Source: Tannerella serpentiformis (lineage in GTDB: Bacteria > Bacteroidota > Bacteroidia > Bacteroidales > Tannerellaceae). From it: a DNA stretch of 64,000 nt. Below the pieces are notes generated by a model. That model ran no database searches. It worked only from the letters and a program-made list of their open reading frames with translations, and was not told where the DNA came from. Positions 10,068-63,870 of this stretch are shown here, one piece after another. Positions within the stretch are counted from its first letter, which is position 1. Each line of letters begins with the position of its first letter. A program made the position numbers and the translations under genes. The DNA lies in NCBI RefSeq assembly GCF_003033925.1, contig NZ_CP028365.1:62001-126000 (forward strand). The letters are read 5' to 3'.

Positions 10068-10503
10068 CCTGCCACAAACTTTTTCGGCTCATTTCCTTGA
10101 GGAATCGCTCGCCACAAACTTTTTCGGCTCATTTCCTTGAGGAATCGGCCGCCACAAACTTTTTCAGCCCATTTCCTCAGGAAATCGGCCGCCACAAAAC
10201 TTTTTCGGCTCATTTCCTCAGGAAATCGCTCGCCACAAACTTTTTCAGCTCATTTCCTCAGGAAATCGGCCGCCACAAAACTGTTTCGGCTCATTTCCTC
10301 AGGAAATCGGCCGCCACAAAACTTTTTCAGCTCATTTCCTCAGGAAATCGGCCGCCACAAACTTTTTCGGCTCATTTCCTCAGGAAATCGGCCGCCACAA
10401 AACTTTTCGGCTCATTTCCTCAGGAAATCGGCAGCTCACTTGCTCACTCATTTCCTCAGGAAATCGGCCACTCACTTACTCACTCATTTCCTCAGGAAAT
10501 CGT
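10068..10503. repeat. Tandem array, 40-41-bp unit, palindromic core ATTTCCTcAGGAAAT
   Basis: About ten and a half units, each holding GCCACAAA, CTTTTTCGGCTC and the palindrome ATTTCCTcAGGAAAT. The first two units carry a variant core (ATTTCCTTGAGGAAT). The unit is 40 bp in the early copies and 41 where an extra A is present. The long ORFs read through the array are by-products of its near-multiple-of-3 period. The array stops just before an inverted-repeat end at 10513-10529. Confidence 0.9.
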
Positions 10504-10512
10504 AGTATGGCC

Positions 10513-10529
10513 TACATCGAACTCACGTT
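10513..10529 (-). repeat. Solo terminal inverted repeat of the array-carrying element
   Basis: On the minus strand this reads AACGTGAGTTCGATGTA, identical over 17 bases to the left end of the element at 31465. No matching left copy is visible near 9950-10060, so the element here has lost one end or never had it. Confidence 0.6.
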
Positions 10530-10578
10530 AATTGGAGCGCCTAAAACTTTTCGGCCTCTTCATGCGGCATGAAGCCAG

Positions 10579-11346
10579 TTACACGTCCCGCTCGCCGGCC
10601 AGGATTTGCCGCAGATCTTCGGCCGAAACGTTGGCGGCGATCTGGCCGTTGTGAGCGACGGCTATCGTGCCGCGCTCCTCGGAAACGATGATGATCAGCG
10701 CGTCCGTCTCTTTCGACATGCCCAGCCCGGAGCGGTGACGGAGGCCCATCTCCTTGGGCAGGCTCACGTTTTTGGCTACGGGCAGGATGCAGCCCGCGGC
10801 AATGATCCGGCCGTCGCTGATGATCATGGCTCCGTCGTGCAGGGGGCTATTCTTGAAGAAGATGTTTTCGATGAGGCGCGCATTGATGTCGGCCATAAAC
10901 ATTTCGCCCGTCTTGGCGTAGTCCGAAAGATCCATCTCGCGGCGGATGACGATCAGGGCGCCGGTCTTCTTACGGGCCATGTTCATACAGGCCAAGACAA
11001 CGGGGGCGATGTAGTTCTGCTCCTTGGTGTCTGTTGTGCGACGCGAGAAGAGTTTGGCTACGAAGCGCCAACCGGGGTTCGACCCAAGGGTGACGAGGAA
11101 GCGGCGGATGTCGTCTTGAAAGAGTACCACAAGCACAATGAAACCGACGCTGATGAAACGATCGAGGATGGCGCCCATGAGGCGCATCTCAAGCACTTGC
11201 GAGACGATCAGCCAAACGATGACCACGGAGACAATGCCGCTGAAGACGGGCAGTGTGCCGGAGCTTTTCATCAGCTTATAGATCTGGTAGGTAAAGAAGG
11301 CTACCAGCAGGACGTCGAGCGCGTCTTTGATGCCGAAGGATATCAT
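10579..11346 (-). CDS. cdaA: Diadenylate cyclase CdaA
   Basis: 255 residues. Three N-terminal helices (within 1-75) anchor it in the inner membrane. The DisA_N catalytic domain follows, with the DGAMII motif (SPLHDGAMII) and GLRHRSGLGMSKETDALIIIVSEE, the RHR motif and its acidic partner. It makes c-di-AMP from two ATP. It lies 25 bases downstream of folP, the common folP-cdaA order in Bacteroidota. Confidence 0.93.
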   Translation of the reverse strand: MISFGIKDALDVLLVAFFTYQIYKLMKSSGTLPVFSGIVSVVIVWLIVSQVLEMRLMGAILDRFISVGFIVLVVLFQDDIRRFLVTLGSNPGWRFVAKLFSRRTTDTKEQNYIAPVVLACMNMARKKTGALIVIRREMDLSDYAKTGEMFMADINARLIENIFFKNSPLHDGAMIISDGRIIAAGCILPVAKNVSLPKEMGLRHRSGLGMSKETDALIIIVSEERGTIAVAHNGQIAANVSAEDLRQILAGERDV

Positions 11347-11371
11347 TATAGGGGAGTTTTTTTGAGGGGAA

Positions 11372-12217
11372 TTATTCCGAAGGGATCAGTTGGCGGGTGA
11401 TGCGAACGGCCTCGACGGCGGCGCGGACATCGTGCACACGAAGGACAGAGGCGCCATGCATGAGGGCGTAGGTGTTGAGCACGGTGGTGCCGTTGAGGCT
11501 GTCGTCGGGCGTGCCGCCAAGCAGGCGGTAGATCATGCTCTTGCGCGATATGCCGACGAGCAGCGGCTCCTCAAAGCGGTCGGCAAACTCGCTGAGGGCA
11601 CGCATGAGCGTATAGTTCTGCTCTAAGGTCTTGGCAAAGCCGAAGCCGGGATCGAGGAGGATGTCGGCCACGCCCAATCGGCGCAGCGTGCGCAGCTCGG
11701 AAGCGAAATACATCATGACGGCCTCCACCACGTCGTCGTAGTCCGTGAATTGCTGCATGGTACGAGGCGTGCCGCGCATGTGCATGAGGACGTAGGGGAC
11801 GCCCAGCGTGGCGACCGTAGCATACATCTGTTCGTCGAGCGAGCCGCCGGAGATGTCGTTGATCATGGCCGCGCCGTATTCCTCGACGGCCCGCCGGGCG
11901 ATGGCCGAGCGGAAGGTGTCGACGGAGACGGGCACATCGGGGTAATCGCGCATGAGGCGGCGGAGGACGGGCTCAAGCCGTGCCCACTCGTCGGCCTCGC
12001 TAACGTCGTCGGCGTCGGGTCGGGAGGAGTATCCGCCGACATCGATGAGTGTGCCACCCTCGTTGAGGATGGCCTCAATACGCCGCACTACGGCGGCTTC
12101 GTCTTGCTGTCGGCTGCCGGCGTAGAAGGAGTCCGGCGTGGCGTTTAGGATACCCATGATAAGGGGCACGTCGAGTGAGCGCAGTGTGCCCTTGAGGTTG
12201 ATTGTTTTTACGTTCAT
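11372..12217 (-). CDS. folP: Dihydropteroate synthase
   Basis: 281 residues. Family blocks in order: MGILNATPDSFYAGSR, DVGGYSSRPDADDVSEADE, VDTFRSAIARRAVEEYGAAMINDISGG, MHMRGTPRTMQ, DPGFGFAKTLEQNY and GISRKSMIY. It condenses p-aminobenzoate with dihydropterin pyrophosphate in folate synthesis and is the sulfonamide target. It is the first gene of the folP-cdaA pair. Confidence 0.94.
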   Translation of the reverse strand: MNVKTINLKGTLRSLDVPLIMGILNATPDSFYAGSRQQDEAAVVRRIEAILNEGGTLIDVGGYSSRPDADDVSEADEWARLEPVLRRLMRDYPDVPVSVDTFRSAIARRAVEEYGAAMINDISGGSLDEQMYATVATLGVPYVLMHMRGTPRTMQQFTDYDDVVEAVMMYFASELRTLRRLGVADILLDPGFGFAKTLEQNYTLMRALSEFADRFEEPLLVGISRKSMIYRLLGGTPDDSLNGTTVLNTYALMHGASVLRVHDVRAAVEAVRITRQLIPSE

Positions 12218-12307
12218 GTATGTTGTTAGTTACGAGTTTCGAGTGGGGGAGCAGGGGTGCCGGCCATCTTTCGGCCAAACTTCACTGGCGGATACAACTT
12301 CTTATTC

Positions 12308-14467
12308 TTACCCAGCGACCATGCGCCAGATGAAGGCGACAATCGATGTGACGATGATGCCCAGCACAAGGGGGAGAAGGGTGGCCACGGCGGTCCATTT
12401 CGCGCTGTGGGTCTCCTTATAAATGGTGTAGATCGTCGTGCTGCACGGGTGATGCATGAGGCAGAAGAGCATGAGGCAGACGGCCGTCAAGAGGTTCCAT
12501 CCGCCAGCCAAGAGGATCTGCTTCGTCTCTGCGTCTCCGCCTTCCATCAGCACACCCGCTGCGCCCGCGTCGCTCTGCCCAAGCACAAGCAGCGTCAGCA
12601 TAAGCACCGTAGGTATCACGATCTCGTTGGCGGGGATGGCTAAGATGTACGCGAGCAGGATGACTCCGTTCAGCCCCATGATCCACCCCGGTGTGCTCAG
12701 CCAATGGATCAGATGCGCGGCGATGCTCACACCGCCCACCGTGAGGTTGCAACAGAGCCAGATGACGGCGCCCGCGGGTGCCGCAAAGACGAGGGCTCGC
12801 CAAAGCACGATCAGCGTGCGGTCGATGATGGACGTATAGATGGTGCTCCAGAAGCGGGGCGGGCGGTATGGCGGCAGCTCGAGGTGGAAGGTAGAGACTT
12901 CGCCGCGGAGCAGTGTGCGCGAGAGCACCCACGAGCTGCCGAACATGAGCGTCACGCCCAGAAAGACGACGCCCATGACGGCCACCAGCGAGACGATCCC
13001 GCTGTAACGCGCCGGTACGGCGGCACCCACGAAGAGCGTGGCCAGCAAGATCTGCGTCGGCCAACGCCCGTTGCAGAGCGAGAAGTTGTTCGTGATAATG
13101 GCGATCAGTCGCTCGCGCGTACTGTCGATGATGCGCGTGGAGACGACGCCCGCAGCATTGCAGCCGAAGCCCATGCTCATCGTCAGCGCCTGCTTGCCAT
13201 GTGCCCCGGCTCGGCGAAAGAGTTCGTCGAGATTGAAGGCCACGCGGGGCAGATAGCCGAAGTCCTCCAGCAGCGTGAAGAGCGGGAAAAAGATGGCCAT
13301 CGGCGGCAGCATGACGGAGACAACCCATGCAGTGGAGAGGTAGACGCCGTCGACCAGCAGCCCCGTGACCCACGCCGGCGCACCGAAGCCCACGAAAAGG
13401 CCGCGCAGGGCCGGGTGAATCAGCCCCACGAGCAGGTCGCTCAGCCACGACGACGGGTAGTTCGAGCCCACGATCGTCATCCAAAAGACGCCCGAGAGCA
13501 GCGCGACCATGATTGGGAAACCCCACACGCGATGCGTCAAGATGCGATCCAGCCGCACGTCCATCGGCAGTCGGCCGCGGCGGTTGCCCTGCGTCACGAC
13601 GTCGCGACAGATCGCCTCAGCCTGGGCATAGATATCCTCCATCCATTGGTCGTGAAAGTTGTTGCTGATCTGGAGGTGGATGTTTTCGGCCAGCGCGTTC
13701 AGCTCGTCGTTGCCGAAGCGTTGGCGCACGCTCGGATCCTGCTCGACGAGTCGGAAGGCGATCCATTCGGCGTTCGATAAGTTGGGGTGCACACGGGCCA
13801 CGGCCTCGGTCAAGACGCGGATATGATCCGCCGTGGCGGGCGGCAAGTTCGTGGCGCGGTGTGGCCGGCAGACGTAGGCGCCCGTGGCCACCTCGTGCAT
13901 CATCTCCAGCAGGCGGTCGATGCCCTTGCCCGACCGCGCCGAGCAACCCGCCACGGGGATGCCGAGCCGTCGCGAGAGGGCGTTGAGGTCGATATGGATG
14001 TGGTTGCGCTCGGCCTCGTCGAGCAGGTTGACGCAAAGCACAGCGCGATCCGTGATCTGTAGCACTTGCAGGATGAGGTTCATGTTGCGCTCCAGGCGTG
14101 TGGCGTCGGCCACCATGACAGTCACGTCGGGCTTGCCAAAGAGGATAAAGTCGCGGGCGATCTCTTCATCCTCCGACGTGGAGGCGAGCGAGTACGTGCC
14201 GGGCAGGTCGACGATGCGATACGTGTCGCCACCGTAGCCGAAGAAGCCTTCGGCCTTGCCGACCGTCTTGCCGGGCCAGTTACCCGTGTGTTGCTTGAGT
14301 CCGGTCAGGGCATTGAAGACGGTGCTCTTGCCCGTATTCGGATTGCCGGCCAGGGCCACGACGAAGCGCTCGCCGTCGGCCTGCGCACCGCGTCGCTCCA
14401 GACCGTGCATAGGCGCCGCCTTGGGACAGGTGGCGCAGGGTGAGGCAGTGTTTGTTGTCTGATTCAT
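12308..14467 (-). CDS. feoB: Ferrous iron transporter FeoB
   Basis: 719 residues. A short N-terminal extension contains CATC (residues 11-14). The G domain follows: G1 GNPNTGKST at 41-49, G3 DLPGT, G4-like CVNLLDE. Then come a helical spacer and a polytopic membrane part from about residue 300 with the two FeoB gates (for example [18 protein letters not shown]). It moves Fe2+ across the inner membrane. It overlaps the end of the DtxR-FeoA gene by 4 bases, so the two are translationally linked. The small Cys-rich FeoC-like tail is absent. Confidence 0.95.
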
Positions 14468-15486
14468 TGGGGTTGTGGGATATGGGGAAAAGACGGCTGA
14501 GAGGAGCCGGTACCGATTAGGATGTAGCGCGCCTGATCGTGGCGCAGGGCGATGGCTGTCCCGCGCACGGCGTAGGCCACGGGGTTGCCCATCGGACTGA
14601 CGAGATCGATGCTCACTGTGCTGCCACGCACGAAACCAAGGTCGAGCAGACGGCGGCGGAGGGCGCCGCGACAGGAGGGCGAAAGGCCCACGATACGCGC
14701 CGTGACGCCCGCCTCGAGTCGGGTCAGCCGTCGGGCATCAGCCTCGGGACTGCGACGCACCTCGTCGTCCGTCATCGGCTCCATGTTGAGCGCCGCGTGG
14801 GCCGCCGCAGGCAGGGCGAAACGCTCGCCTTCGTACATGAAGGTGAAGCCCTCCGGTGTCACGTCGGTGATGAAGAGCACGGAGTCCTTCGTCAGTCCGA
14901 GGTCGTCGATGAGGGTGAAGAGGGCGCGGTCGTCGTCCTCCACGTGCGTGACGCGCCACCAGCTGCGGGCCCGGAGCGCACGGTCGTCGTCGCCACGGTC
15001 GGCCACCTCCAGCGAGCGCGTAGGGATGGGGTCGCCGTGCGGATCGAACGACGGGTTGCGCAGCAGCGAGACGATGCGCTCCTGCTCGGCGTCACTGATG
15101 CGGTGCTCCATTCGGTGCGCGCGCTCGTGCCATTCCGCCGGCGCATAGCCCGAATGCTCGGCCAGATACTGCTCATAGATGCGATGTGCACGAACGATTC
15201 GGAGGGCGTGCTCACGGCCGGCGTCGGTCAGTTGTAGCTCGTCGCCCATCGTCAGCTCGCCCCGCAAGGCCAGTCGGCCAACAGCGGACGCCGTACGATC
15301 CGCGTCCGCCCCGAGCGACTCGCCCACGCGCTGCACCTCGTCGGCCGCGATGCGTCCGCCTAGCTCATAGACCGCCTTGAGGAGATCCTCCTCCACCTCT
15401 CTGTCCTGTTCGCGGTCGTGCCGCCCGAAGCGTGTCCGGATGGCGTCAAAGAGGCGTGTGCCGTGACTCTTTTCTCTCTTCATCAT
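14464..15486 (-). CDS. DtxR-family metalloregulator fused to a FeoA domain
   Basis: 340 residues from ATG 15486 (MMKREK...), chosen because a -7 box lies 32 bases upstream; the frame is open to 15561. The N-terminal helix-turn-helix spans about 25-85. The dimer/metal domain includes [15 protein letters not shown] and the DtxR hallmark [12 protein letters not shown], then an SH3-like domain with the segment [18 protein letters not shown] final FeoA domain ([24 protein letters not shown]) completes it. I infer an iron-sensing repressor whose FeoA part may also touch FeoB, encoded next. Confidence 0.82.
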
Positions 15487-15517
15487 CGTATAAATGTTGT
15501 GGTGTAAAAGCCGGTCG

Positions 15518-15525
15518 CAAAAATA
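15518..15525 (-). promoter_or_regulatory. -7 box for the DtxR-FeoA / feoB operon
   Basis: The minus strand reads TATTTTTG, 32 bases before the chosen start at 15486. Confidence 0.55.
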
Positions 15526-15561
15526 AGCACGGATAAATAGGGGGGATTCATAACCTCTCAT

Positions 15562-15897
15562 AGCAAATGCCCCTCAATCAGATTCTGATTTGCTACCCTT
15601 GGCAGCAAATGCCCCTCAATCAGATTCTGATTCGCTACCCTTGGCTGCAAACGCCCCTCGATCAGATTCTGATTCGCTATCCCTGACAGCAAACGCCCCT
15701 CAATCAGATTCTGATTCGCTACTCTTGGCAGCAAACACCTCCCAATCAGATTCTGGTTCGCAACCCTTGGCAGCAAACAACTCCCGATCAGATTCTGATT
15801 CGCAACCCTTGGCAGCAAACGCCCCTTAATCAGATTCTGATTCGTTACCCTTGGTAGCAAATGCCCCTCAATCAGAAACGGATTGGCATCTTACTGC
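15562..15897. repeat. Tandem array, exact 42-bp unit, core AATCAGAtTCTGATT
   Basis: Eight units start at 15562 and recur every 42 bases to 15856, the last one partial. Each holds AGCAAATGCCCCTC, the palindrome AATCAGAtTCTGATT and CTACCCTTGG. It lies between the divergent feo and tamB promoters. Confidence 0.92.
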
Positions 15898-23869: not shown

Positions 23870-25087
23870 ATGAAAGAATTCATTATCACCCAAGAGCAGA
23901 CCGAGCGCGCCGTCCTGGTGGGGTTAGTCACCCCCGAGCAGAGTGAGGCGCAGGTCAAGGAATACTTAGACGAGCTGGCCTTCCTGGCCGAAACGGCCGG
24001 GATTGAGCCTGTCCGACGCTTCACCCAGAAGGCCGACAAGCCGCATGCCGTAACCTTCGTCGGGTCGGGTAAGTTGCAACAGATTGGCGAGTATGTGGCT
24101 GAGAACGAGATAGGCATCGTGGTCTTTGACGACGAGCTCTCGGCCAAGCAGCTACGAAATATCGAAAAGGAACTCAAGGTGCGCATCCTGGACCGCACGA
24201 ATCTCATCCTCGACATCTTTGCCAAGCGCGCGCAGACGGCCCACGCCAAGACGCAAGTCGAGCTGGCGCAGTACCGCTATATGCTTCCCCGTCTGACGCG
24301 CCTATGGACGCACCTGGAGCGTCAGCGAGGCGGCGTGGGTATGCGTGGGCCGGGCGAGACGCAGCTCGAAACCGACCGGCGCATCATTCTCGACCGCATC
24401 TCCAAGCTCAAACGTGAGCTGGAAGAGATAGACCGGCAGAAGGCCACTCAGCGGCGCAACCGGGGCAAGATGGTCCGCGTGGCGCTCGTAGGTTATACCA
24501 ACGTGGGCAAGTCGACCCTCATGAACTTGCTTGGTAAAAGCGACGTGTTTGCCGAAAACAAGCTCTTCGCCACCCTCGACACCACCGTGCGCAAGGTGAT
24601 CATCGACAACCTGCCCTTCCTCCTCTCCGATACGGTGGGCTTCATCCGCAAGTTGCCTACCGAACTCGTCGAGTCGTTCAAGTCCACCCTCGACGAGGTT
24701 CGCGAAGCCGATCTTTTGGTGCATGTCGTGGACATTTCCCACCCTACTTTTGAGGAGCAGATCGAAGTCGTAGAGCGCACCCTGGCAGACATCGGTTGCG
24801 CCGACAAGCCCATCATCACGGTCTTTAATAAGATCGACGCGTTTTCGTTTGTCCCCAAGGACGAGGATGATCTCACGCCCCGCGAGCGCGAAAACATCCC
24901 CCTCTCCGAGCTTCGCGAGACCTGGATGAGCCGTCGCCCCGGCAGCTGCATCTTCATCTCCGCCCGCGATCGGACCAACATCGCCGCCCTCAAGTCGCTC
25001 CTCTACGAGCACGTCAAAGCCATCCATATCACCCGTTTCCCCTACAACGATTTTCTCTTTCAGCAGTACGACGGCGAAGGCGAATGA
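23870..25087 (+). CDS. hflX: GTPase HflX
   Basis: 405 residues. The N-terminal HflX domain holds FVGSGKLQQIGEYV and RVQ-type helices; the family signature RGGVGMRGPGETQLETDRR precedes a coiled coil (about 160-195). The G domain follows: G1 GYTNVGKST, G3 DTVGFIRKLP, G4 FNKIDA. HflX splits or rescues stalled 70S ribosomes, especially after heat stress. Transcribed alone; a hairpin terminator follows. Confidence 0.94.
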   Translation: MKEFIITQEQTERAVLVGLVTPEQSEAQVKEYLDELAFLAETAGIEPVRRFTQKADKPHAVTFVGSGKLQQIGEYVAENEIGIVVFDDELSAKQLRNIEKELKVRILDRTNLILDIFAKRAQTAHAKTQVELAQYRYMLPRLTRLWTHLERQRGGVGMRGPGETQLETDRRIILDRISKLKRELEEIDRQKATQRRNRGKMVRVALVGYTNVGKSTLMNLLGKSDVFAENKLFATLDTTVRKVIIDNLPFLLSDTVGFIRKLPTELVESFKSTLDEVREADLLVHVVDISHPTFEEQIEVVERTLADIGCADKPIITVFNKIDAFSFVPKDEDDLTPRERENIPLSELRETWMSRRPGSCIFISARDRTNIAALKSLLYEHVKAIHITRFPYNDFLFQQYDGEGE

Positions 25088-25324: not shown

Positions 25325-25766
25325 TTGAATCCAATCCCCGCCGGGTTTTCGGTAGATATGGCCATTTTCATCCAATCCTCGCCGGGTTTTCGGTGGATAT
25401 GGCCATTTTCGTCCAATCCTCGCCGGGTTTTCGGTGAATATGGCCATATTCATCCAATCCTTGCCGGGTTTTCGATAGATATGGCCATTTTCATCCAATC
25501 CTCGCCGGGTTTTCGGTGGATATGGCCATTTTCGTCCAATCCTCGCCGGGTTTTCGATAGATATGGCCATTTTCGTCCAATCCTCGCCGGGTTTTCGATG
25601 GATATGGCCATTTTTGTCCAATCCCCGCCGGGTTTTCGGTGAATATGGCCATTTTCATCCAATCCTCGCCGGGTTTTCGGTGGATATGGCCATTTTCATC
25701 CAATCCTCGCCGGGTTTTCTGTGAATATGGCCATTTTCATCCAATCCTCGCCGGGTTTTGCGTGCA
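25325..25766. repeat. Tandem array, exact 41-bp unit, core ATATGGCCATat
   Basis: CCGGGTTTTC starts at 25341 and recurs every 41 bases to 25751: eleven units without a single length change. Each unit has the palindrome ATGGCCAT, extended to GAATATGGCCATATTC in one copy (25435-25450). Read on the minus strand, 18 bases of each unit (AAACCCGGCGAGGATTGG) nearly match the prophage arrays at 42.0 and 52.8 kb. Confidence 0.93.
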
Positions 25767-31464: not shown

Positions 31465-31816
31465 AACGTGAGTTCGATGTAAGAATAACGCCAGCAGAGA
31501 GCTTCTACGGGAGTCACACGATGGCCAAAACGCTTTTAGAAATACTTGCACCGGCGGTACAAGGGCCAAAAAGTGGTTTTTGCGATTTGCACCACCGGTG
31601 CAAGGGCCAAAAAGCAATTTTTTCCGTTTGCACCGATGGTGCAAGTGACAAAAAGTGGTTTTTTCTGTTTGCACCACCGGTGCAAGAAACAAAAAGAGGT
31701 TTTTGAGGTTTGCACCGCCGGTGCAAGCATTTCCAAAAGCATTTTGGCCTTTACAGCGCACTATGAAAGACATTCTCCAAGGATAAGATACCTCATTCTT
31801 ACGTCGAACTCACGTT
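31465..31816. mobile_element. MITE-like element carrying a 41-bp tandem array (copy 1)
   Basis: 22-bp terminal inverted repeats match at 21 of 22 positions: left 31465-31486 starts AACGTGAGTTCGATGTA; right 31795-31816 ends CGAACTCACGTT. AAGG sits directly outside both ends (31461-31464 and 31817-31820), a likely target duplication. Inside, about five units of 41 bp share the core TTGCACCaccGGTGCAA (31547-31735). It codes for nothing convincing. Confidence 0.75.
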
Positions 31817-31962: not shown

Positions 31963-32853
31963 ATGAAGAAACTATTCCTCCTTGCGGCCGTCGCCCTCCT
32001 CAGCCCGACGGCCTCGATCATGGCGCAGGACGACGCGCCGCGCGACACCTCGTATTGGACACACAGCGGTGCCGCCTCGCTGACCTTCGGGCAGACCTCC
32101 TTCACCAACTGGGCCGCCGGCGGCGAAAACTCCGTCTCCGTGCTCGCCGCCTTCGCAGGCAAATGGAACTACGCGAAGGATAGATGGATGTGGGACAACT
32201 CAGCCGACCTCGGCTACGGCCTCACCTATCAAGGTAGCGACCAGATCAAAAACGACGACCACATCGACCTCGCCACCCGCCTCGGCTACAAGGCCTCAGC
32301 CACCTGGGCCTACGCGGCGGAGCTGAACTTCAAGTCGCAATTCAACAAGGGCTACAGCAAGTATCCCGTGACGGACGACGCCGCCTACATCTCCAAATTC
32401 ATGGCCCCGGGCTACCTGCTCGGATCCATCGGTATGACCTACACCCACCCGCGCGAAGACCTCAAGGTGCTCATCTCGCCCGTGTCTGAAAAGATGACCT
32501 TCGTCTCCGACCGCCGCCTCTCCGACGAGGGCGCGTACGGCGTCGAGAAGGGCGACCGCGTGCTGGCCGAGTTCGGCGCCCTGGTCAAGGGCACCTACTC
32601 GAAGAAGATCACCGAAAACGTCCTCTTCAACACCGAAGTCCTCCTCACCTCGGCCTACAAAACCTTCGGCAACGTGGACGTGGACTGGAAGATGTCGCTC
32701 GACTGGAAGCTCAACAAATACTTCACCTTCAAGGCCAACACCTACCTCCTCTACGACGACGACATCCGCTACGTCGACAAGGACGGCGTGAAGCATGGCC
32801 CGCGCGTACAGTTCAAAGAAGTCGTCGGCCTCGGCCTCGGATACATCTTCTAA
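31963..32853 (+). CDS. DUF3078 family outer-membrane protein
   Basis: 296 residues with a signal peptide (MKKLFLLAAVALLSPTASIMAQ). The family signature FTNWAAGGENSVSVLA follows at about 44-60. The remainder alternates strands and ends ...VGLGLGYIF, a C-terminal aromatic typical of outer-membrane barrels. DUF3078 proteins are widespread in Bacteroidota and have no settled function. Confidence 0.82.
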   Translation: MKKLFLLAAVALLSPTASIMAQDDAPRDTSYWTHSGAASLTFGQTSFTNWAAGGENSVSVLAAFAGKWNYAKDRWMWDNSADLGYGLTYQGSDQIKNDDHIDLATRLGYKASATWAYAAELNFKSQFNKGYSKYPVTDDAAYISKFMAPGYLLGSIGMTYTHPREDLKVLISPVSEKMTFVSDRRLSDEGAYGVEKGDRVLAEFGALVKGTYSKKITENVLFNTEVLLTSAYKTFGNVDVDWKMSLDWKLNKYFTFKANTYLLYDDDIRYVDKDGVKHGPRVQFKEVVGLGLGYIF

Positions 32854-32940: not shown

Positions 32941-33660
32941 GATTGTACGATACAATCGGCCGAAGCCTGTAGTGGTGATTGTACGATAACGTGAGTTCGA
33001 CAAAAGAATGAGATACCCTTTTGAGAATGTCATTGATAGCATGCTGTAACGGCCAACAGGTTCTCCGAAGCACTTGCGGGACTCCCCGCAAACGCCAAAG
33101 CAAATGCCGGGAGACTTGCGGGACTCCCGCAAACGCCAAAGCAAATGCCGAGAGACTTGCGGAACTCCCCGCAAACGCCAAAGTAAATACCGGGAGACTT
33201 GCGGGACTCCCGCAAACGCCAAAGCAAATGCCGAGAGACTTGCGGAACTCCCCGCAAACGCCAAAGTAAATACCGGGAGACTTGCGGGACTCCCGCAAAC
33301 ACCAAAGCAAATGCCGGGAGACCTGCGGGAGTACCCGCAAACGCCAAAGCAAATGCCGGGAGACCTGCGGGAGTACCCGCAAACGCCAAAGCAAATGCCG
33401 AGAGACTTGCGGAACTCCCCGCAAACGCCAAAGCAAATGCCGGGAGACCGGCGGGAGTACCCGCAAACGCCCAAAAGTTCTTCGAGGCACTTGCAACAGT
33501 GTTGTAGGCATTTCCAAAAGCACTTTGGCAATCGCGCGGATTCTGCGTATAGACTCTCTGCTGACACTATTCTTACACCGAACTCACGTTACAATACAAT
33601 CAGCCGCAACATGTAATGGCGATTGTACGATACAATCAGCTGAAGAAGTTTGTGGCGACT
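32941..33660. repeat. 36-bp palindromic tandem repeat, interrupted by an insertion
   Basis: The unit begins GATTGTACGATACAATC, with the palindrome ATTGTAcgaTACAAT. Unit 1 is 32941-32976. Unit 2 is split: 32977-32987 (11 bases) plus 33596-33620 (25 bases) make exactly 36. Unit 3 starts at 33621 and is longer (about 40). The inserted block is the MITE-like element plus 5 duplicated bases. Confidence 0.8.
32988..33590. mobile_element. MITE-like element carrying a 41/42-bp tandem array (copy 2)
   Basis: Left end 32988 AACGTGAGTTCG and right end 33590 CGAACTCACGTT match copy 1 over 12 bases, then diverge. Flanking 5-mers ACGAT (32983-32987) and ACAAT (33591-33595) form a one-mismatch target duplication. 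Inside lie about ten units of 41 or 42 bp with the core TTGCGGGAcTCCCGCAA or close variants, together with CGCAAACGCCAAAGCAAATG. The ORFs read through the array are not real genes. Confidence 0.8.
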
Positions 33661-38793: not shown

Positions 38794-38876
38794 TCCCCAC
38801 GCTCAAGGGGAACGGTGGCCAACTGAGCGTTATCCTGTGCGGAGGGCCGTCGAACACAGCGACGGGTTGTTGCAAA

Positions 38877-39030
38877 TCTGCGGCAGCCAGAAATAGTGTA
38901 TTTCGGCGCCCTTAAAATCTGCGGCGGCCAGAAATAGTGTATTTCGATCGCTGCAAATTCTGCGACAGCCAGAAATAGTGTATTTCAGGCGTTGTAAATT
39001 CTGCGACGGCCAGAAATAGTGTATTTATGC
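38877..39030. repeat. Tandem array, exact 41-bp unit, core GAAATAgtgTATTTC
   Basis: Units start at 38877, 38918, 38959 and 39000. Each has TCTGCGRCRGCCA and the palindrome GAAATAgtgTATTTC. It lies at or near the left border of the prophage. Confidence 0.92.
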
Positions 39031-41973: not shown

Positions 41974-42029
41974 TTGTTGCTTTGTTCAATGTCTAAACAA
42001 CCAAACAACCACCCGAAATGAGTCTCGGA

Positions 42030-42270
42030 TTTGACCAAAAACCGGTTGGAAGCCCAAAACGTGCCAAGGATTTGACCAAAAACCGGTTGGGAGCCCAAAA
42101 CGTGCCAAGGATTGCACCAAAAACCGTTTTGAAGCCCAAAACGTGCCAAGGATTTGACCAAAAACCGTTTTGAAGCCCAAAACGTGCCAAGGATTTGACC
42201 AAAAACCGATTTGAAGCCCCAAACCCGCCGAGGATTGCATCAAAAACCATTTTGGAGTCCAAAACCCGGC
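42030..42270. repeat. Tandem array, exact 41-bp unit, core AACCGGTT / AAAACcGTTTT
   Basis: Six units with GAAGCCC-like anchors at 42052, 42093, 42134, 42175, 42216 and 42257, every 41 bases. Each contains CCAAAAACCG and GAAGCCCAAAAC. It belongs to the same family as the array at 52.8 kb and lies between the early small genes and muA. Confidence 0.92.
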
Positions 42271-51045: not shown

Positions 51046-51394
51046 TTTGACCTGTTACCTGCATATCGGTTACGCTCCGAGCCCCTTTTTACCCCCTTCC
51101 TACACCGCTAATTGTCGGAAAAACAAGTACCGACTGGCCCGGATCCCCGCGGCAAAGAACCGCCGATTTTAACCGTTAAAACCGCCTGAATCCGCGGTTC
51201 TTTACACGCCGATTTGCGGGGCGTCTGGGTGCCCTTCACCTTTGCCGCCGAACCAACGAACAACTAACACCTAACAACGAACAACTAACAACTAACACCT
51301 AAACACCTAAACACCTAAACAACTAAACAACTAAACACCTAAACAAACCAACAACCAACGGGGCTTTAGCCCCCAACAACCAACAAACATCAGT
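51046..51394 (+). other. Leader region before the DUF6261 gene
   Basis: No gene. An inverted pair, CCGCGGCAAAGAACCGCC (51148-51165) with CGCGGTTCTTT (about 51194), could form a large hairpin. From 51255 an A/C-rich run of AACAACTAACACCT and AACACCTAAACACC repeats reaches the start codon. GGGGCTTTAGCCCC makes a small hairpin near 51360. Confidence 0.6.
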
Positions 51395-52393
51395 ATGGAC
51401 AAAGATTTAGAGATTAAGACCGTCGGGCAGAAGAAGCTCGACAACGCGATGCACGTGACCTATCACACCGAGATGCACGGCATCCTCAAATCGGCCGATC
51501 AGGCCAAGACCGGTATCCCAGCCGAGATCATGACCGACTACAACGGCGGCATCACCGAAGAGACCGAGCTCAACCGCGAGGCCCAAGCCGACGCCCTCAC
51601 GGCCGAGCTCGTGAAGGCTGACACGGCCCGCGATCGCGCCGTGCAGTACTTCTTCGCCTCCGTTCGTGCCGCCCGACTCTCGCCCGACGAGGCCGTACAG
51701 AAAGCAGCCGCCGCGCTCATGCCCACCGTCAGCGTCTACAGCGGTGCACCCACCGAGGCGGCCGACCGTGAGACGGCCCTCATCTCCGGCCTTGTGGTCG
51801 ACCTGAAGAAGGCGGAGCTCACGGCCCACCTCACCACGCTCCACCTTGCCGACCTGCCGGCCAAACTCGAGGCCCTCAATAAGGCGTTCTCCGACTTGGC
51901 CACCAAGCGCTCAGACGGGCGCGCGGCCACGAAGCTGCCGCTGGCCTCCAAAGTCCGCCCACGGACCGACGCCGCCTACGAGCGCATCCTCTTCACCCTG
52001 CGCTCCAACTACCTCTTCGGCTCCACGCCCATCGAGAAGCCGGCCATCGAGGCCCTTGCTGCCCGACTCAACCAGCGCGCCGCCGAGCTGGACGCCGCCT
52101 GGAAGCAGTCCGCCGCCCAGAAGAAGCGCGCGCCCCGCAAGCCGTCCGTCCCCAAGGAACCCAAGCAGCCTAAGGAGCCCAAAGACCCGAAGCAACCGAA
52201 GCAGCCCAAGGATCCGAAGAAGCCGGGCGGTGAACCCAAGCAGCCCGACCAGCCGAAGGACCCCAAGAAGCCGGGTGGTGGCTCCGGCGAACAGCCCCAG
52301 CCGGGCGGCGAGAAACCGAAGAAGCCGGGCGGCGAGAAACCGAAGAAGCCGGGCGGCGATGGCAATCCGGACATCACCCTGCCGGAGGAATAG
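51395..52393 (+). CDS. DUF6261 family protein with a Lys-Pro-Gly-rich tail
   Basis: 332 residues. Residues 1-250 are helical and fit DUF6261, a Bacteroidota family of unknown role. From about 250 the chain becomes repeats of KxPKxPK and KKPGGEKP, strongly basic and probably disordered, perhaps wall- or nucleic-acid-binding. It has an A/C-rich leader, and no other gene lies close by. Its presence in a phage late region is unusual; it could be cargo. Confidence 0.65.
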   Translation: MDKDLEIKTVGQKKLDNAMHVTYHTEMHGILKSADQAKTGIPAEIMTDYNGGITEETELNREAQADALTAELVKADTARDRAVQYFFASVRAARLSPDEAVQKAAAALMPTVSVYSGAPTEAADRETALISGLVVDLKKAELTAHLTTLHLADLPAKLEALNKAFSDLATKRSDGRAATKLPLASKVRPRTDAAYERILFTLRSNYLFGSTPIEKPAIEALAARLNQRAAELDAAWKQSAAQKKRAPRKPSVPKEPKQPKEPKDPKQPKQPKDPKKPGGEPKQPDQPKDPKKPGGGSGEQPQPGGEKPKKPGGEKPKKPGGDGNPDITLPEE

Positions 52394-53157
52394 GCGTTTA
52401 TGTGTTGGGGCCTAACGGCCCTGTTTAGATGTTTAGGTGTTTAGTTGTTGAGATGTTGAATTGTTGAGATGTTGAACCACTTGTCAAACCAACGAACAAA
52501 CGCCTCAACGACTCAACGGGCCGAAGGCCTCAACAACTCAACAGGTCGGAGGCCTCAACACCTAACAATGACCATGTACCCGTGTAGGGGCGGCCTCTGC
52601 CGAGGCTGGGAAGTCTGCCGGGGGCGTCTTCGGACGCCGGCGAATTTTGCCTGATACATGTAGGGGCGAATTGCATTCGCCCTCCAGACGTCCCGACAGG
52701 GACGGGCGCCAGACGCATTCATTCGGCCCCGTTGGGGGCCGTCTAATGGGGCGAATGCAATTCGCCCCTACACGGACGCCGCGAAACCCGCCGGGAATTG
52801 CGCCAAAAACCGATTTGAAGCCCGAAACCCGCCGAGGATTGGGCCAAAAACCGATTTGAAGCCCGAAACCCGCCGGGAATTGCGCCAAAAACCGATTTGA
52901 AGCCCGAAACCCGCCGGGGATTGCGTCAAAAACCGATTTGAAGCCCGAAACCCGCCGAGGATTGCACCAAAAACCGATTTGAAGCCCCAAACCCGCCGAG
53001 GATTGGGCCAAAAACACGTTTTTGGTCTGCGGCGACCCTCATTTCACACCCCAACAACGAACAACTAACACCTCAACAACTAAACACATAAACAGGGGCT
53101 TTAGCCCTCAACACCTAAACACCCCAACACCTCAACAGATAAACAAATAAACAAACC
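52394..53157. repeat. Repeat-rich gap: oligonucleotide runs, REP hairpins and a 41-bp array
   Basis: 52420-52565 has TTTAGGTGTTTAGTTGTTGAG and then CTCAACAACTCAAC runs with GGCCGAAGGCC-type hairpins. REP-like copies lie at 52594-52620 (CCTC-TGCC-GAGG) and 52623-52657 (GGCGTC-TTCG-GACGCC plus tail). GGGGCGAATTGCATTCGCCC pairs with its inverse near 52747-52770. From 52790 to 53010 units recur at 52820, 52861, 52902, 52943 and 52984, exactly 41 bp apart. 53045-53155 is another AACACCTAAAC run. Confidence 0.88.
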
Positions 53158-53643
53158 ATGAAAGTACTCTTTGAAGGTACCGGGGCCATGTTTCCTGTGG
53201 CCACCGCGTGTTTCGTATTCGTTTTAATCGCCATCATCGTAGACCTCATCAGCGGCATACGGAAGGCCAAAGAGAGTGGGCAAGAGATCCGCTCGAAACC
53301 ACTCAGCCGGACGGTCACGAAGTTCGTCATCTATGAGGGCGCCGTGGTCATTGCGACCATGATCGACTACATGCTGCATTTCTCGCATCTGTTTGTATTG
53401 ATGAAGCTGCACCCCATCGTAGGGTTGCCCGTCATTACCTGTCTGATGAGTGTCTTTCTCTGCATCATCGAGATTCTCAGCGTACGCGAAAAGGCCGACG
53501 AAAAGACCCGCCGCCGCTCTGAGGCTATCGTGCAAGCCGTGATTGAAGCCCTTGGAACGGATAACCTCGCCGAGATTCTACGGAAGAAGGCAGATGACAC
53601 CTTGCATGGCCACCAAGCGCCCCCTCAACAACCCAACAAATAA
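53158..53643 (+). CDS. Phage holin (Bacteriophage holin family 4-like)
   Basis: 161 residues. Three hydrophobic stretches lie within about 10-120: MFPVATACFVFVLIAIIVDL, YEGAVVIATMIDYML, IVGLPVITCLMSVFLCIIEI; the C-terminal tail is charged. This matches the holin type common in Bacteroides phages. It makes pores in the inner membrane to release the lysin. The endolysin gene starts 19 bases downstream, so the lysis module is intact. Confidence 0.78.
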   Translation: MKVLFEGTGAMFPVATACFVFVLIAIIVDLISGIRKAKESGQEIRSKPLSRTVTKFVIYEGAVVIATMIDYMLHFSHLFVLMKLHPIVGLPVITCLMSVFLCIIEILSVREKADEKTRRRSEAIVQAVIEALGTDNLAEILRKKADDTLHGHQAPPQQPNK

Positions 53644-55748: not shown

Positions 55749-58373
55749 ATGAGCAATAAAACGAAGCATAAACAGGCCGCCGCTGGCCCTATCTCTACGC
55801 AGATCATTGTGCAGCCTGTGGTGCGCACCGTCCACGATGTGGCCGCGTGGCGTTCCGCACTGCGTATGGCCGACAACGGTAACCGTACAAAGCTCTACGA
55901 CCTGTATAGTGACATCCTGCTGGATGGCGTGCTTGCCGACGCCATCGATAAACGTATCGACGCCGTCAAAGACGCCGATCTGTCGTTCACGATCGACAAC
56001 AAAGACGTGGATGTGATGTATGATCTGATGGATACGGTCGAGTTCGAGGAATTGATCGGCGAGATTATGATGGCTAAATTCTGGGGTATCTCCGTCGATG
56101 AGTTCGATTTTGACGAGGATCGAACCTTCCGCTTTACGTCTATCAATCGGAAGCACATCCGCCCGAAGTTGAAAGAGATCGTAAGGCAGCAGACGGACGA
56201 CCGCGGCATCTCCTACGCTGGTGATGATCGGGTCATTCAGTGGGGCAAAGACGACGATCTCGGGCTACTGCTGAAGGTCTCGCCATTGGTCATCTACAAA
56301 CGCGGCGGATTTGGCGACTGGGCGCAGTTTGTCGAGCTGTTCGGCATGCCCCTTCGCATCGGCAAATACAGCGCAATGGATGAAGCCAGCCGCCGCGAAT
56401 TGATCCGTGCTTTTGAGACGGCCGGATCGGCACCTTATCTCGTTATCCCCAAAGAGACGGAGGCCACGCAGGAAGCCAACGCTGCGTCTGGCAACGGACT
56501 TCTATATAAAGAGTTCCGGCAGGCTTGCACGGAGGAAATCCTGATCACCATTTTGGGGCAGACGATGACCACCGTAGACGGCAGTTCGCTGGCGCAGGGA
56601 CAGGTGCACATGGCTGTTCAAGAAAAGAAGCACCGTGCCGATAGGCGGTTCGTGGAGCGCATGCTCAATCGCTATTTCGTGCCCATGCTCATCCGCCGCG
56701 GCTATCCGATCACCGGCGGAAAGTTCCGCTACATGGATGCCAAACGCGAGCTCGAGGTGCCCGAGATCATCCAACTCTCGGACATCCTACCCATCCCGCA
56801 GAGCTACCTGCATGAAAAGTACAACATCCCTCTACCTGAGCCCGGAGAGCCTATCGCCCGCCGACAGGCGCAGCCGCTGTTTGGGGTGCCTGATGGGTCG
56901 CAAGAGGATGATGAAACGGACGAGGGAGACGCGCCCGACAAAGGCAAGGCGGATGCGCCAGAGTCTGACAAAAAGGCAGCGGAGGATGATGCGCCGACAA
57001 GTCGTAAAGTGAAACATGCGGATCGCGACCGCGGCAACTTCTTTACCCGGTTGTTCGATTTTTTCGTCCCCGCCCGGTCATACGGCCGGGCGACATCCGA
57101 CATCCTCACACTCTCGGAAGCCACGCTTGCGGATGCCCTGATCCGACAGACGATTGAGACAAAGGGACGTGCCTATTTCAGCGCCGACCTGTTTGCCTAC
57201 ACCCACACGGAGCTCATCCGCGGACTGCGAAAGGGCTATCGCCGCGCGGACGTCCGGCTGGCTGATAGTGGCTTTGTCTACAATGCCAACGATGATGCTT
57301 ACATCACCGCCTTGGAGCAAAACCTGTTTCATTTCTCAGCCGCCAAAACACTGGCTGAGGTAAGTGAGTTGAACCGTCTGTTCCGCGAGAGCAAGGGCTA
57401 CAGCGATTTCAGGAAGAAGGCCAGAGCGCTGCTAAAGGTCTACAATGAGCAATGGCTGCGCACGGAGTACAATACGGCCGTATCCGTGGCAGAATCGGCA
57501 AGCACCTACCGGCGATTGGTGGTACAGGCAAACATCTTTCCGTTTTGGGAATACCGCACCGTGGGCGATAATCGTGTTCGTTTGGAGCATCAGGCCTTGG
57601 AGGGGCTGACCTTGCCGACAGATGATCCACGCTGGCAAAAGATTATGCCACCCAATGGATGGAACTGCCGTTGCTACATTACCCCCAGAATGAGGCATGA
57701 AGGGGTAAACGTCGACTTTGGAGCCATGCAAAAGCGATGCGATGATTACCTCGAATCGCCCGAATGGAAACAGTGTGAGGCGCAGGGATTCGGCATCAAT
57801 CGTGCGAATGAAGCCGAGGTGTTTACGGCTAATCAGATGTACATTCATAAGTTCCCGAACATGTCGAGTAAGACCCTCGAAAAAATCACTCCGCAAGAGT
57901 GGGGTGTCCGTGAATCCGTCGACACGCTGAAACGGGAGGCAGAAAATGAAGTGCCCAAATATGAAGGTTCGGCAGATGAATGGTTCGAAGCTAATAAGGT
58001 AGTCGAAGACGGAACGGAACTTTTGAAGGTGGAAGACTACATCGGCCGCGTGTGGCAGATGGCAAAGGCGGCATTTGTCACACATTCAACGAACGCAGTT
58101 AAGAAGCGTGGTTTCCGCACTGAGTTTTTGAATGCCATCCGAGAGGTTGCCGCTTCGCCTGATGAAGTATGGCTGGCACGTGAGCGGAAAGATCGGATCA
58201 ATAAGGTAAAGGCATTGAACAACTACGTGATGATCAAATATTATAAGGACATCGCGTTGGCCGTAGTGGGGAAGCTCGAAAAATCAAAGTTGACTCTCAA
58301 ATCATGGTATGTGCTAAGGGATAAAGCGCCGCGCCGTGGGTTGCTGATTAGGAAACGCCCGAAAACAAAATAA
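55749..58373 (+). CDS. Portal (DUF935, Mu gp29) fused to MuF head-morphogenesis protein, with a nuclease-like C-terminus
   Basis: 874 residues. The DUF935 portal domain covers about 10-390 (VHDVAAWRSALRMADNGN, DIPPGW-like segments, ILGQTMTTVDGSSLAQGQVH). An acidic linker follows (about 395-440), then the MuF domain (about 480-640: WLRTEYNTAVSVAESASTYR, PRWQKIMPPNGWNCRCYITP). The last ~140 residues (DEVWLARERKDRINKVKALN, LTLKSWYVLRDKAPRRGLLI) resemble phage Barnase-EndoU-ColicinE5/D-RelE (PBECR) nuclease domains found on MuF proteins. In Mu these are two proteins (gp29, gp30). Confidence 0.85.
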   Translation: MSNKTKHKQAAAGPISTQIIVQPVVRTVHDVAAWRSALRMADNGNRTKLYDLYSDILLDGVLADAIDKRIDAVKDADLSFTIDNKDVDVMYDLMDTVEFEELIGEIMMAKFWGISVDEFDFDEDRTFRFTSINRKHIRPKLKEIVRQQTDDRGISYAGDDRVIQWGKDDDLGLLLKVSPLVIYKRGGFGDWAQFVELFGMPLRIGKYSAMDEASRRELIRAFETAGSAPYLVIPKETEATQEANAASGNGLLYKEFRQACTEEILITILGQTMTTVDGSSLAQGQVHMAVQEKKHRADRRFVERMLNRYFVPMLIRRGYPITGGKFRYMDAKRELEVPEIIQLSDILPIPQSYLHEKYNIPLPEPGEPIARRQAQPLFGVPDGSQEDDETDEGDAPDKGKADAPESDKKAAEDDAPTSRKVKHADRDRGNFFTRLFDFFVPARSYGRATSDILTLSEATLADALIRQTIETKGRAYFSADLFAYTHTELIRGLRKGYRRADVRLADSGFVYNANDDAYITALEQNLFHFSAAKTLAEVSELNRLFRESKGYSDFRKKARALLKVYNEQWLRTEYNTAVSVAESASTYRRLVVQANIFPFWEYRTVGDNRVRLEHQALEGLTLPTDDPRWQKIMPPNGWNCRCYITPRMRHEGVNVDFGAMQKRCDDYLESPEWKQCEAQGFGINRANEAEVFTANQMYIHKFPNMSSKTLEKITPQEWGVRESVDTLKREAENEVPKYEGSADEWFEANKVVEDGTELLKVEDYIGRVWQMAKAAFVTHSTNAVKKRGFRTEFLNAIREVAASPDEVWLARERKDRINKVKALNNYVMIKYYKDIALAVVGKLEKSKLTLKSWYVLRDKAPRRGLLIRKRPKTK

Positions 58374-61283: not shown

Positions 61284-61310
61284 CCAATCAACTAAATACA
61301 AACAAACAAG

Positions 61311-61469: not shown

Positions 61470-61519
61470 GCAAAAATAGAATTTAAACGATATACGAATA
61501 CTGATTAAACAACGACTAA

Positions 61520-62386: not shown

Positions 62387-62422
62387 CACCCGCCCATTAT
62401 CCAAGGCGGCCATGAAAAGGAA

Positions 62423-62463
62423 GACCCCGCACCCCCAGCCATAGGCAGAGGAGATGCGGGGTC
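62423..62463. other. Hairpin after the dam gene
   Basis: GACCCCGCA (62423-62431) pairs with TGCGGGGTC (62455-62463). No T-run follows. The rest of 62387-62574 shows no gene. Confidence 0.5.
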
Positions 62464-62574
62464 AACCATATCTGGACAGCAGCGCACCGACGCCCCACCG
62501 GGCGAACCGTTAAGGATATACAAACCACCCAAAAACGACGCGTCCGAAAAAAGCGGTGGTGTCACCCCAATCTT

Positions 62575-62618
62575 CGGACAAATCGTTTTGAGATTTCGGA
62601 CAAATCGTTTTGCGGATT
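62575..62618 (+). other. Two abutting 22-bp direct repeats at the likely prophage right end
   Basis: CGGACAAATCGTTTTG begins at 62575 and again at 62597; the units are exactly 22 bp and touch. In phage Mu the transposase sites R1 and R2 at the right end are also tandem 22-bp units, and what follows here is a 5'-truncated integrase gene. I could not find the same motif at the left side, so this is a candidate only. Confidence 0.4.
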
Positions 62619-63681
62619 ATAGGTGTCAATCATGCGCTGAGTGACATCGAACAACAATTGAATGCACTCTATGAGCGCACGCTCCGGGAGGAGCGATACA
62701 TCACGGCCGAGTATCTCAAGGAGCAATACCGGCTTCAGGACAAGCCGCGGCAGACGTTCGCCGACATTTACTCGGCTCTTTGTGAGGAGAAGGCGGCCCA
62801 TAAAAGCAAGGCCACAGCGCGGGGCTTTCGAGACAGCTACAAGAGTCCTTGACACACGCGGGCTGCAGCGCAGTTTGCCCCACGAGGTGGACAAGGCGCT
62901 GATAGAAGCCTATCGCCTCTACATGTTGCGCGACTTAGGCTATAAGATGAGTTCGGTAGCCGTCTACCTGAGGCGTCTGCATCAAGTCTTCCGGCGGGCG
63001 ATGTTAGAGGCGGGGCTGAGAGAGGATCCGTTCGACCTGATCGACATCGAGACGCCGGCCTACGAACGCAACGCCCTCAGTGCCGAAGACCTGCAACGGC
63101 TTTTGGCTTATCGCCCGCATCGCTCCGTGGACAACCATTTCCGGCTGATCTTCCTCTTGGGCTGCTTTACCGGCCTGGCATTCTCCGACCTCAAAAAGCT
63201 CCGCATAGAGGATGTTTACACGCTCAGCGACGGGCGCCGATACCTCTCCATCTGTCGCACCAAGACGCAGAGCGGCAGCATCGTGCCCCTGCTTCCCATC
63301 GCCGAAGAGATACTCGCCTACGTGGGACAGGGTCGTACTGAGAGGCTATGGTTTCGGGAGTTTCCCGTGAACAGCCACTTCAATCGCAAGATACGCGAGC
63401 TGCTCGTCAAGGCTGGTTGCTCGCCGCACACCGAGGCCAGTTCGCACACCGCGCGCCACACTTTCGCAACCACCATCTGCTTAGAAAACGGCCTGCCCAT
63501 CGAGACCGTGAGTCGGATGTTGGGGCATCGTTTTATCTCCGCCACGGAGTTATATGCCAAGGTGAGCAAGCAGAAGATCGCCCAAGAGATGCGTCCGCTG
63601 ATGGGCAGCGAGCAGACGCAGAAGCTACGCCGTGCCTTGCGAGTTTGTCCGCCGAGGAAGAGGGCGTTCGATCAAGAATGA
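62592..63681 (+). pseudogene. Tyrosine recombinase, truncated and frameshifted
   Basis: 62592-62852 reads the end of an arm-binding domain (NHALSDIEQQLNALYERTLR, QTFADIYSALCEEKAA). Near 62840 the reading shifts to a second frame that continues to 63681: SSVAVYLRRLHQVFRRAMLE, LLGCFTGLAFSDLKKLRIED, SHTARHTFATTICLENGLPI, LGHRFISATELYAKVSKQKI with the catalytic Tyr. The 5' end is missing at the border with the Mu-like prophage. It is probably a relic of another integrated element. Confidence 0.82.
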
Positions 63682-63684
63682 CTC

Positions 63685-63870
63685 TGGCAGGCGGCCTGCC
63701 AAAGTGGTCCAACACTCCGGTGACGTTGGCAGGCCGCCTGCCAGGACTATCGGACACTTTGGTGATGCTGGCAGGCCGCCTGCCAGGGCTATCGAACACT
63801 CAGGTGATGTTGGCAGGCCGCCTGCCAGAGTCATCGAACACTCCAGCGATGTTGGCAGGCCGCCTGCCGG
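63685..63870. repeat. Tandem array, exact 42-bp unit, core TGGCAGGCcGCCTGCCA
   Basis: Units start at 63685, 63727, 63769, 63811 and 63853. Each has the 17-base palindrome TGGCAGGCcGCCTGCCA and a CATCGAACACTC-like spacer. Bases 63871-64000 show no gene; TTGCTGT/ACAGCAA near 63968-63989 can form a small hairpin. Confidence 0.92.

Follow-up and report, generated by a model that had tools for sequence, protein, structure and literature searches.

Why should tandem arrays that differ in sequence all keep a unit of about the same length? The question is raised by a stretch of 64,000 nucleotides from Tannerella serpentiformis (contig NZ_CP028365.1, positions 62,001 to 126,000 of the forward strand; hereafter the window), in which nine tandem arrays share a period of 40–42 bp. 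The original prediction was that the spacing of the units on the helix is under selection. The results described here suggest that what is preserved is the spacing on DNA, with units near two or four helical turns, and not the sequence. The window is part of a single-contig genome of 3,013,500 bp (G000, where it is G000:C1:62001-126000). Its nine arrays were located with Tandem Repeats Finder (TRF), and most were also read from printed units:

10071..10502, units of 40 or 41 bp, about 10.9 copies; palindrome ATTTCCTcAGGAAAT and a second, weaker dyad (GCC..AAACTTTTT..GGC); TRF, printed units
15562..15876, 42-bp units, 7.5 copies; palindrome AATCAGAtTCTGATT; TRF, printed units
25329..25759, 41-bp units, 10.5 copies; palindrome ATATGGCCATWT; TRF, printed units
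31546..31727, 41-bp units, 4.4 copies; palindromes TTGCACCnnnGGTGCAA and AAAAAnnnnTTTTT; TRF, printed units
33072..33471, mixed units of 42 and 41 bp, 9.6 copies; palindrome TTGCGGGAcTCCCGCAA, loop variable; TRF, printed units, autocorrelation
38874..39026, 41-bp units, 3.8 copies; palindrome GAAATAgtgTATTTC; TRF, printed units
42027..42265, 41-bp units, 5.8 copies; in the provirus region; TRF
52782..53015, 41-bp units, 5.7 copies; same family as the 42.03-kb array, palindrome weak; TRF
63685..63868, 42-bp units, 4.4 copies; palindrome TGGCAGGCcGCCTGCCA; directly after a phage-integrase-family gene

All nine are found by TRF at the positions first claimed for them, and in an autocorrelation scan of the window over lags 8 to 199, the highest values are those of 41, 42 and their multiples. 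The claim that spacing never varies in six arrays is about right, because TRF reports 0% indels in five of the nine (15.56, 25.33, 31.55, 42.03 and 52.79 kb) and the 38.88- and 63.69-kb arrays keep register when printed at a fixed 41 or 42 bp. The 33.07-kb array mixes units of 42 and 41 bp, and the 10.07-kb array units of 40 and 41 bp. The palindromes that had been named are present in the printed units, as is the weak core at 52.79 kb; the 42.03-kb array is palindromic too (CGTTTTG-5 nt-CAAAACG), and the 31.55-kb array can be aligned with its reverse complement (70% over 201 bp). The arrays do mostly differ in sequence as stated, but those at 42.03 and 52.79 kb align at about 82%, and several share loose clusters.

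A broad spread of unit lengths across the genome would have spoken against selection for spacing. The window and 59 further stretches of 20 kb (1.244 Mb, 41% of the genome) were searched with TRF for arrays of at least 100 bp and at least 2.5 copies, and the spread is narrow. The search yielded 198 arrays, 146 of them with a period of 40–42 bp (40:13, 41:68, 42:65), and these make up 146 of the 158 arrays in the period range 24–70 bp. The period is thus quantised: a further 11 arrays have shorter units (21:1, 22:9, 23:1), 20 have near-multiples (82:1, 83:1, 84:12, 126:1, 128:1, 165:1, 168:3), and the remaining 21 are scattered from 7 to 378 bp. In the last 400 kb, which were sampled once the tests were fixed, 43 of 57 arrays have periods of 40–42 bp. 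The 146 arrays occupy 3.3% of the sampled DNA, with a median of 6.4 copies (range 2.6–31.7), and by extrapolation there are about 350 genome-wide. With the same filter, no array was found in 20 Markov-shuffled windows (1.28 Mb), and seven were found in 1.247 Mb from 80 named Bacteroidales loci, one of them of 42 bp, in a metagenome-assembled genome (MAG) of the Tannerellaceae. The detailed statistics below use the 123 arrays with a consensus of 40–42 bp and a match of at least 80%, rather than the 146 with a TRF period of 40–42; these 123 sort into 32 sequence clusters.

The same lengths recur in related species. In 40 stretches from 13 other genomes there are 24 arrays; 20 have periods of 21–23 or 41–42 bp, and all 20 are in five genomes. 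These five array-bearing congeners (20 stretches, 356 kb) contain 23 arrays (21:9, 22:1, 23:1, 41:2, 42:7, three others), against one in the 364 kb (20 stretches) from outgroups and from congeners without arrays, a split that was made after the arrays had been seen. A sixth congener, G012, has a 42-bp array within 4 kb in a scan that counted arrays from 80 bp and from period 12 up. In sister species the array sequences are different and the 21/42-bp lengths alike. On a tree of HflX, the seven array-bearing genomes (G000 included) all lie within one clade of ten (support 0.79), whose other members have no counted array in the DNA sampled (G003, 23 kb; G007, 4 kb; G024, 3 kb). Within the genomes sampled the arrays are restricted to this clade; absence outside it is based on 100 kb (G023), 34 kb (G018) and 20 kb (G009, G015, G017), and seven other congeners were sampled over 3–4 kb each. 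At the level of single loci, a search with the 31.55-kb array across 40 other genomes of the genus gave nothing, but G000 itself gave another 16 matches at E≤0.001, some of which pair the two strands of a single place while one is the array's reverse complement. The DUF3078 gene (31963–32853) has arrays on both sides in G000 and none in the flanks of about 1.5 kb in seven relatives, six of them clear orthologues.

How general the palindromes are depends on the test applied. That most units are palindromic holds by our own, looser score, which finds a clear palindrome in 84 of 123 arrays, but less well in stricter tests: of 105 arrays (first 844 kb) tested one by one, 49 have p≤0.05 for dyad symmetry of the whole unit and 37 for an ungapped local palindrome. 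Taken together, palindrome strength against shuffles is high both in G000 (z 8.8, 32 cluster representatives) and in the relatives (z 7.3 for 13 units of 21–23 bp, z 6.5 for 10 units of 40–43 bp). Loops are of 0–1 nt in 16 of the 32 representatives. When 88 arrays are averaged about their main dyad, low variability and pairing are seen at about 3–7 bp and again near 15–18 bp, whereas the centre and the stretch at 8–13 bp vary more; the conserved arms are thus some 5 and 16 bp off the dyad. Because the main axis was itself selected by pairing, the informative parts of this profile are the variability and the second peak alone. Where both members of a pair have changed, Watson-Crick pairing is kept in 35 of 46 cases and, in a second analysis, in 20 of 31. 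Of 168 array edges, 67 (26 starts, 41 ends) lie 6–12 bp from the centre of a dyad, where about 24 would be expected, a count to be read with the tendency of TRF edges to favour well-conserved blocks.

Within units, AA/TT and the positions that tolerate mutation come back at intervals of about 10.4 bp. AA/TT power at harmonic 4 of the unit (10.25–10.5 bp) is raised 1.75-fold (z 4.8, with the 32 clusters weighted equally), compared with 1.12-fold in 2000 intergenic and 1.05-fold in 2000 coding windows outside arrays, and the signal is seen again in the last 400 kb (z 3.5, 38 arrays, from families common to the first sample). Column variability is likewise periodic at harmonic 4, with z 6.1 and p 0.001 over 95 arrays, z 2.7 and p 0.004 over 21 clusters, and z 3.3 over eight arrays of the relatives. 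Families are oriented at random with respect to genes (26 of 35, null 25.2, p 0.44), and one-sided arm changes, read on the coding strand in tandem-gene contexts, show no excess of G-U over A-C (98 and 101). The constraint therefore looks like one on DNA, not on RNA.

On the basis of these observations, we hypothesise a dyadic module of about 21 bp, or two helical turns. In most arrays of G000 the unit of 40–42 bp would then consist of one strong and one weaker dyad, which would place half-sites at intervals of about 10.4 bp along one face of the helix. Unit lengths of 21–23, 40–42 and 84 bp would arise because the module is repeated once, twice or four times, and lengths of 31 and 52 bp would be rare for the same reason. 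The phased dyads would be read by a dimeric or oligomeric protein, probably of the nucleoid type and with little sequence specificity, which may coat or bend long intergenic stretches. Whole units would be gained and lost by slippage or unequal recombination; arrays would be homogenised within a locus, and new loci seeded mostly without flanks. We give an even chance to the proposal that these are satellite-like arrays, selected for helix-phased dyads that a DNA-binding protein contacts. Its strongest form is put forward more tentatively, as a possibility that may well not hold: the clade would keep hundreds of intergenic satellites by selection on helical geometry alone, the dyads of about 21 bp being sites of a chromatin-like, largely sequence-independent coating protein, and sequence would drift freely between loci, strains and species.

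Selection for spacing is thus supported in part. The narrow periods, the harmonic-4 phasing, the compensatory changes, the array edges at palindromes and the lack of an RNA-strand signature are in its favour, and a number of observations weigh against it. The first is that units of three or five turns are nearly absent (31 bp, 1 of 198; 52 bp, 0 of 198), which favours a module consisting of a 21-bp dyad over the simple rule of the same face after any number of turns. Taken singly, the palindromes reach p≤0.05 in only 5 of 13 and 4 of 10 units of the relatives (21–23 and 40–43 bp) and 13 of 32 units of G000, and several members of the largest cluster have their two best dyads 19 bp apart, not half a period. 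AA/TT power is raised at harmonic 3 as well (z 3.3), and the 21–23-bp units of the relatives have no AA/TT peak at harmonic 2. Column variability is also up at harmonic 2 (z 3.6 over 95 arrays, 1.3 over 21 clusters); a block-3 null lowers its harmonic-4 signal to z 4.7 and 1.9, respectively, and a layout of stem, loop, stem and linker alone would give part of the pattern. The purine/pyrimidine signal at 10.4 bp falls from z 8.3 over all arrays to 1.4 over the 32 representatives (1.7–2.8 in a larger set) because it is driven mostly by the large clusters. Intrinsic curvature, predicted from a wedge table entered by hand, is weakly up in the representatives of G000 (z 1.3–1.5) and in the 21–23-bp units of the relatives (z 2.0–2.2) and lowered in their 40–43-bp units (z −1.6 to −1.7); with values as weak as these, intrinsic curvature was rejected as the main property. 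There is no motif in common: the most over-represented 7-mer occurs in 5 of 55 representative units, and no 5–7-mer is widely shared. For a class of protein-bound phased dyads one would expect dyads and helix-phased conservation, both of which are found (weaker under the block-3 null), and a common recognition motif, which is not found in the 55 units. Finally, HU-family gene counts do not distinguish array-bearing from array-free species, and no binding protein was found.

The comparison of copy number between strains, which had been recommended as a check, can be made in a provirus that covers the last part of the window. The IMG/VR contig IMGVR_UViG_2823181820_000002 spans, by offset, about 36.6 kb to beyond the window end (36637–64000). 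This contig (000002) of IMG genome 2823181820 is 100% identical to the window over 10,483, 8,010 and 4,339 bp, so the genome looks like the window's strain; genome numbers here are those that we take the contig names to contain. A second related provirus of the same genome is on contig 000004. Whole-unit differences are found in related proviruses at two sites. At 42.03 kb, L247 and L248 (from other IMG genomes) hold one 41-bp unit more than the window, and the array of L247 has been homogenised to a variant not shared with the others; at 63.69 kb, the window has 4.4 units and L253 has 5.5. The 42.03-kb site is without an array in L249 (another IMG genome) and L250 (the second provirus of the window-matching strain); the comparison does not reveal a clean insertion, because unrelated sequence occupies the place in both and leaves no target-site duplication to be read. 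At 52.79 kb, L223 has a different array of about 41 bp. The variation at these three sites argues against their being assembly artefacts.

Position relative to genes was determined with gene calls from a codon-score script made for this analysis, not from an annotation pipeline. Of the 146 arrays of 40–42 bp, 140 fall outside called genes. Array edges have a median distance of 159 bp to gene starts, and only 6 of 135 are within 30 bp (118 arrays with called neighbours), compared with 20 of 101 for stops (Fisher p 0.00025). Among gaps of at least 400 bp in all 60 pieces, 117 of 216 contain an array, with no clear preference of orientation (tandem 70/130, convergent 14/33, divergent 33/53), although the arrays themselves add to gap length. 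An apparent enrichment in divergent gaps (25 of 93 non-edge intergenic arrays) fades among these longer gaps. A family member is present at another place for 85 of 123 arrays, mostly with unrelated flanks: among 119 same-family pairs, 11 share flank homology of at least 40 bp beyond 20 bp from the array, and 108 share none.

These data bear on four other explanations. The best surviving is that the arrays are neutral or selfish satellites produced by a mutational ruler, in which replication, repair or recombination duplicates about 21n bp (for example by hairpin-primed slippage or small-circle amplification) and templated hairpin repair keeps the palindromes. It fits the way in which related proviruses differ by exact units and are homogenised locally, the same-family arrays at many loci mostly without common flanks, the near absence of three- and five-turn units, and the presence of arrays in long gaps of all gene orientations. 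The ruler itself does not predict AA/TT phasing or column variability at 10.4 bp, or array edges at palindrome edges, and to our knowledge no enzyme has a length ruler of about 21n bp. We consider it unlikely, though a serious competitor, and phased dyads selected through a DNA-binding protein are favoured over it.

Alternatively, each array could be a cluster of operators served by a separate local regulator, and the shared period would reflect the usual two-turn spacing of dimeric helix-turn-helix proteins. The dyad arms about 10 bp apart speak for it, as do the distances to gene starts, rarely below 30 bp. However, most arrays have family members elsewhere in unrelated flanks, arrays are also present in convergent gaps, and about 350 extrapolated arrays in at least 32 clusters would require dozens of regulators; the explanation is improbable. 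A post-transcriptional role as RNA hairpins, either terminators or mRNA 3'-end structures, would account for short-loop palindromes, intergenic placement and compensatory changes. It is at odds with the random orientation and the balance of G-U and A-C changes noted above, and with the loops of 0–1 nt in half of the representatives and some arms of A-T only; an Rfam scan of the window found no family at gathering score, and the 10.4-bp ruler has no RNA reason, which together make it very improbable. Least probable of all is a mobile element with the array as its interior, either a miniature inverted-repeat transposable element (MITE) or a repetitive extragenic palindrome (REP) with its RAYT transposase, since, despite same-family arrays at many loci, common flank sequence in 11 pairs and the precedent of the intergenic 23-nt minisatellite BrickBuilt in Porphyromonas gingivalis (PMC4596501), the 108 pairs without it show no general leader or tail, the clusters are unlike in sequence, and the RAYT-type domain PF01797 is found in one gene in G000 and in none in the array-bearing G014 and G016 (both 99% complete).

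Several neighbouring features were observed. The 15562..15876 array lies immediately next to the start codon of a gene (14464–15561, minus strand) that encodes Fe_dep_repr_C and FeoA domains, and the 25329..25759 array begins 241 bp past the gene for an HflX-like GTPase (23870–25087), whose closest relative among the 80 named loci is in the MAG Tannerella sp. S17M_Sa_42 (86%), followed by Parabacteroides and Tannerellaceae records. A plasmid source for the 10.07-kb array was rejected, the search giving no match. The provirus region contains a protein with a BRO family N-terminal domain (40034–40669), a holin-family open reading frame (ORF; 53158–53643), a single ORF with Mu-type portal, Phage_Mu_F and PBECR2 domains (55749–58373), and a phage-integrase-family ORF (62662–63681). 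At 39718–39829 a 21/42-bp repeat (77% match) overlaps a small predicted ORF and may be coding; it is also present in proviruses L247, L249 and L251. A DUF6261 ORF (51254–52393) is preceded by AACAACTA/AACACCTA octamer repeats, and a paralogous stretch near 2.80 Mb (G000:C1 about 2.799 Mb; L004, L119) carries a 41-bp array together with comparable repeats of 27 and 25 bp. Related proviruses have 6 to 12 copies of a 93-bp repeat, perhaps coding, upstream of the holin-family ORF (L222:3767-4323, L224:3768-4324, L225:3241-4290), a place taken in the window by the DUF6261 ORF and the 52.79-kb array. Arrays of 84, 168 and 172 bp period with GGGGCGTAT..GCATACGCCCC palindromes were seen at L080:319-1019, L118:12190-12697 and L107:18481-19091, and heptamer arrays of TAGAGGG / TCTACCC, in 15–26 copies, at L061:18790-18894, L103:14711-14837 and L107:6944-7122.

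Full-text searches of open-licence PMC papers gave no description of these arrays among the matches listed, and comparison was made with several known systems. Plasmid iterons are protein-bound direct repeats of about two helical turns. The present arrays resemble them in unit spacing; iterons, by contrast, are of one sequence at one origin. CRISPR (clustered regularly interspaced short palindromic repeats) arrays consist of regular palindromic repeats with unique spacers. Regular palindromic repeats and array edges that favour the palindrome are found here too, but the whole 41–42-bp unit is repeated, with no unique spacers; the adaptation protein Cas1 is absent from G000, G016, G010, G004 and G021, and there is one in G014. 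CRISPR adaptation thus found no support as an explanation. REP palindromes are linked to RAYT. As far as the source used describes them, they are short, intergenic, present in many copies and tagged by sequence super-families (PMC3733652), whereas here sequences vary between arrays and PF01797 is no constant companion: its count is 1 in G000, G010 and G021 and 0 in the array-bearing G014, G016, G004 and G012. The A-tract phasing described for prokaryotic genomes, a period of A/T runs near 10–11 bp tied to curvature, is, in the part of that work used here, a whole-genome signal (PMC3940949), unlike the present one, which sits in discrete palindromic tandem arrays. Archaeal Borg elements resemble G000 in having many independent arrays on one replicon. 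In the sections of that paper drawn on here, the arrays are fast-evolving and virtually absent from host genomes, with perfect, A-enriched units, 43–65% within ORFs, and units of 18, 20 and 21 nt are named side by side; a search of its text for 'palindrom' and 'helical' gave nothing (PMC9879509).

The nearest precedent found is BrickBuilt (PMC4596501). According to the portions of the report used, it consists of intergenic head-to-tail 23-nt units without spacers, strains differing by whole units; it is one sequence family with 19 copies in ATCC 33277, mostly with a leader and/or tail (3 of 19 have neither) and with small inverted-repeat ends. The present arrays are similarly in a Bacteroidales host, intergenic (140 of 146) and variable by one unit, here in proviruses. 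A BrickBuilt-type MITE was rejected, since flanks are common to only 11 of 119 pairs (no dedicated search for terminal inverted repeats was made), and a single 23-nt family likewise, in view of the 32 clusters. Unlike BrickBuilt, the arrays fall into at least 32 clusters, number about 350 by extrapolation, and keep their period, not their sequence. In bacteria, tandem repeats are generally regarded as typing markers or as single families. If a copying process sets the length, these arrays would reveal an unrecognised length-measuring mutation mechanism. If instead a protein reads the geometry, selection on DNA geometry would be directly testable in a bacterium, and the arrays would be a bacterial counterpart of satellite chromatin that is flexible in sequence and fixed in length.

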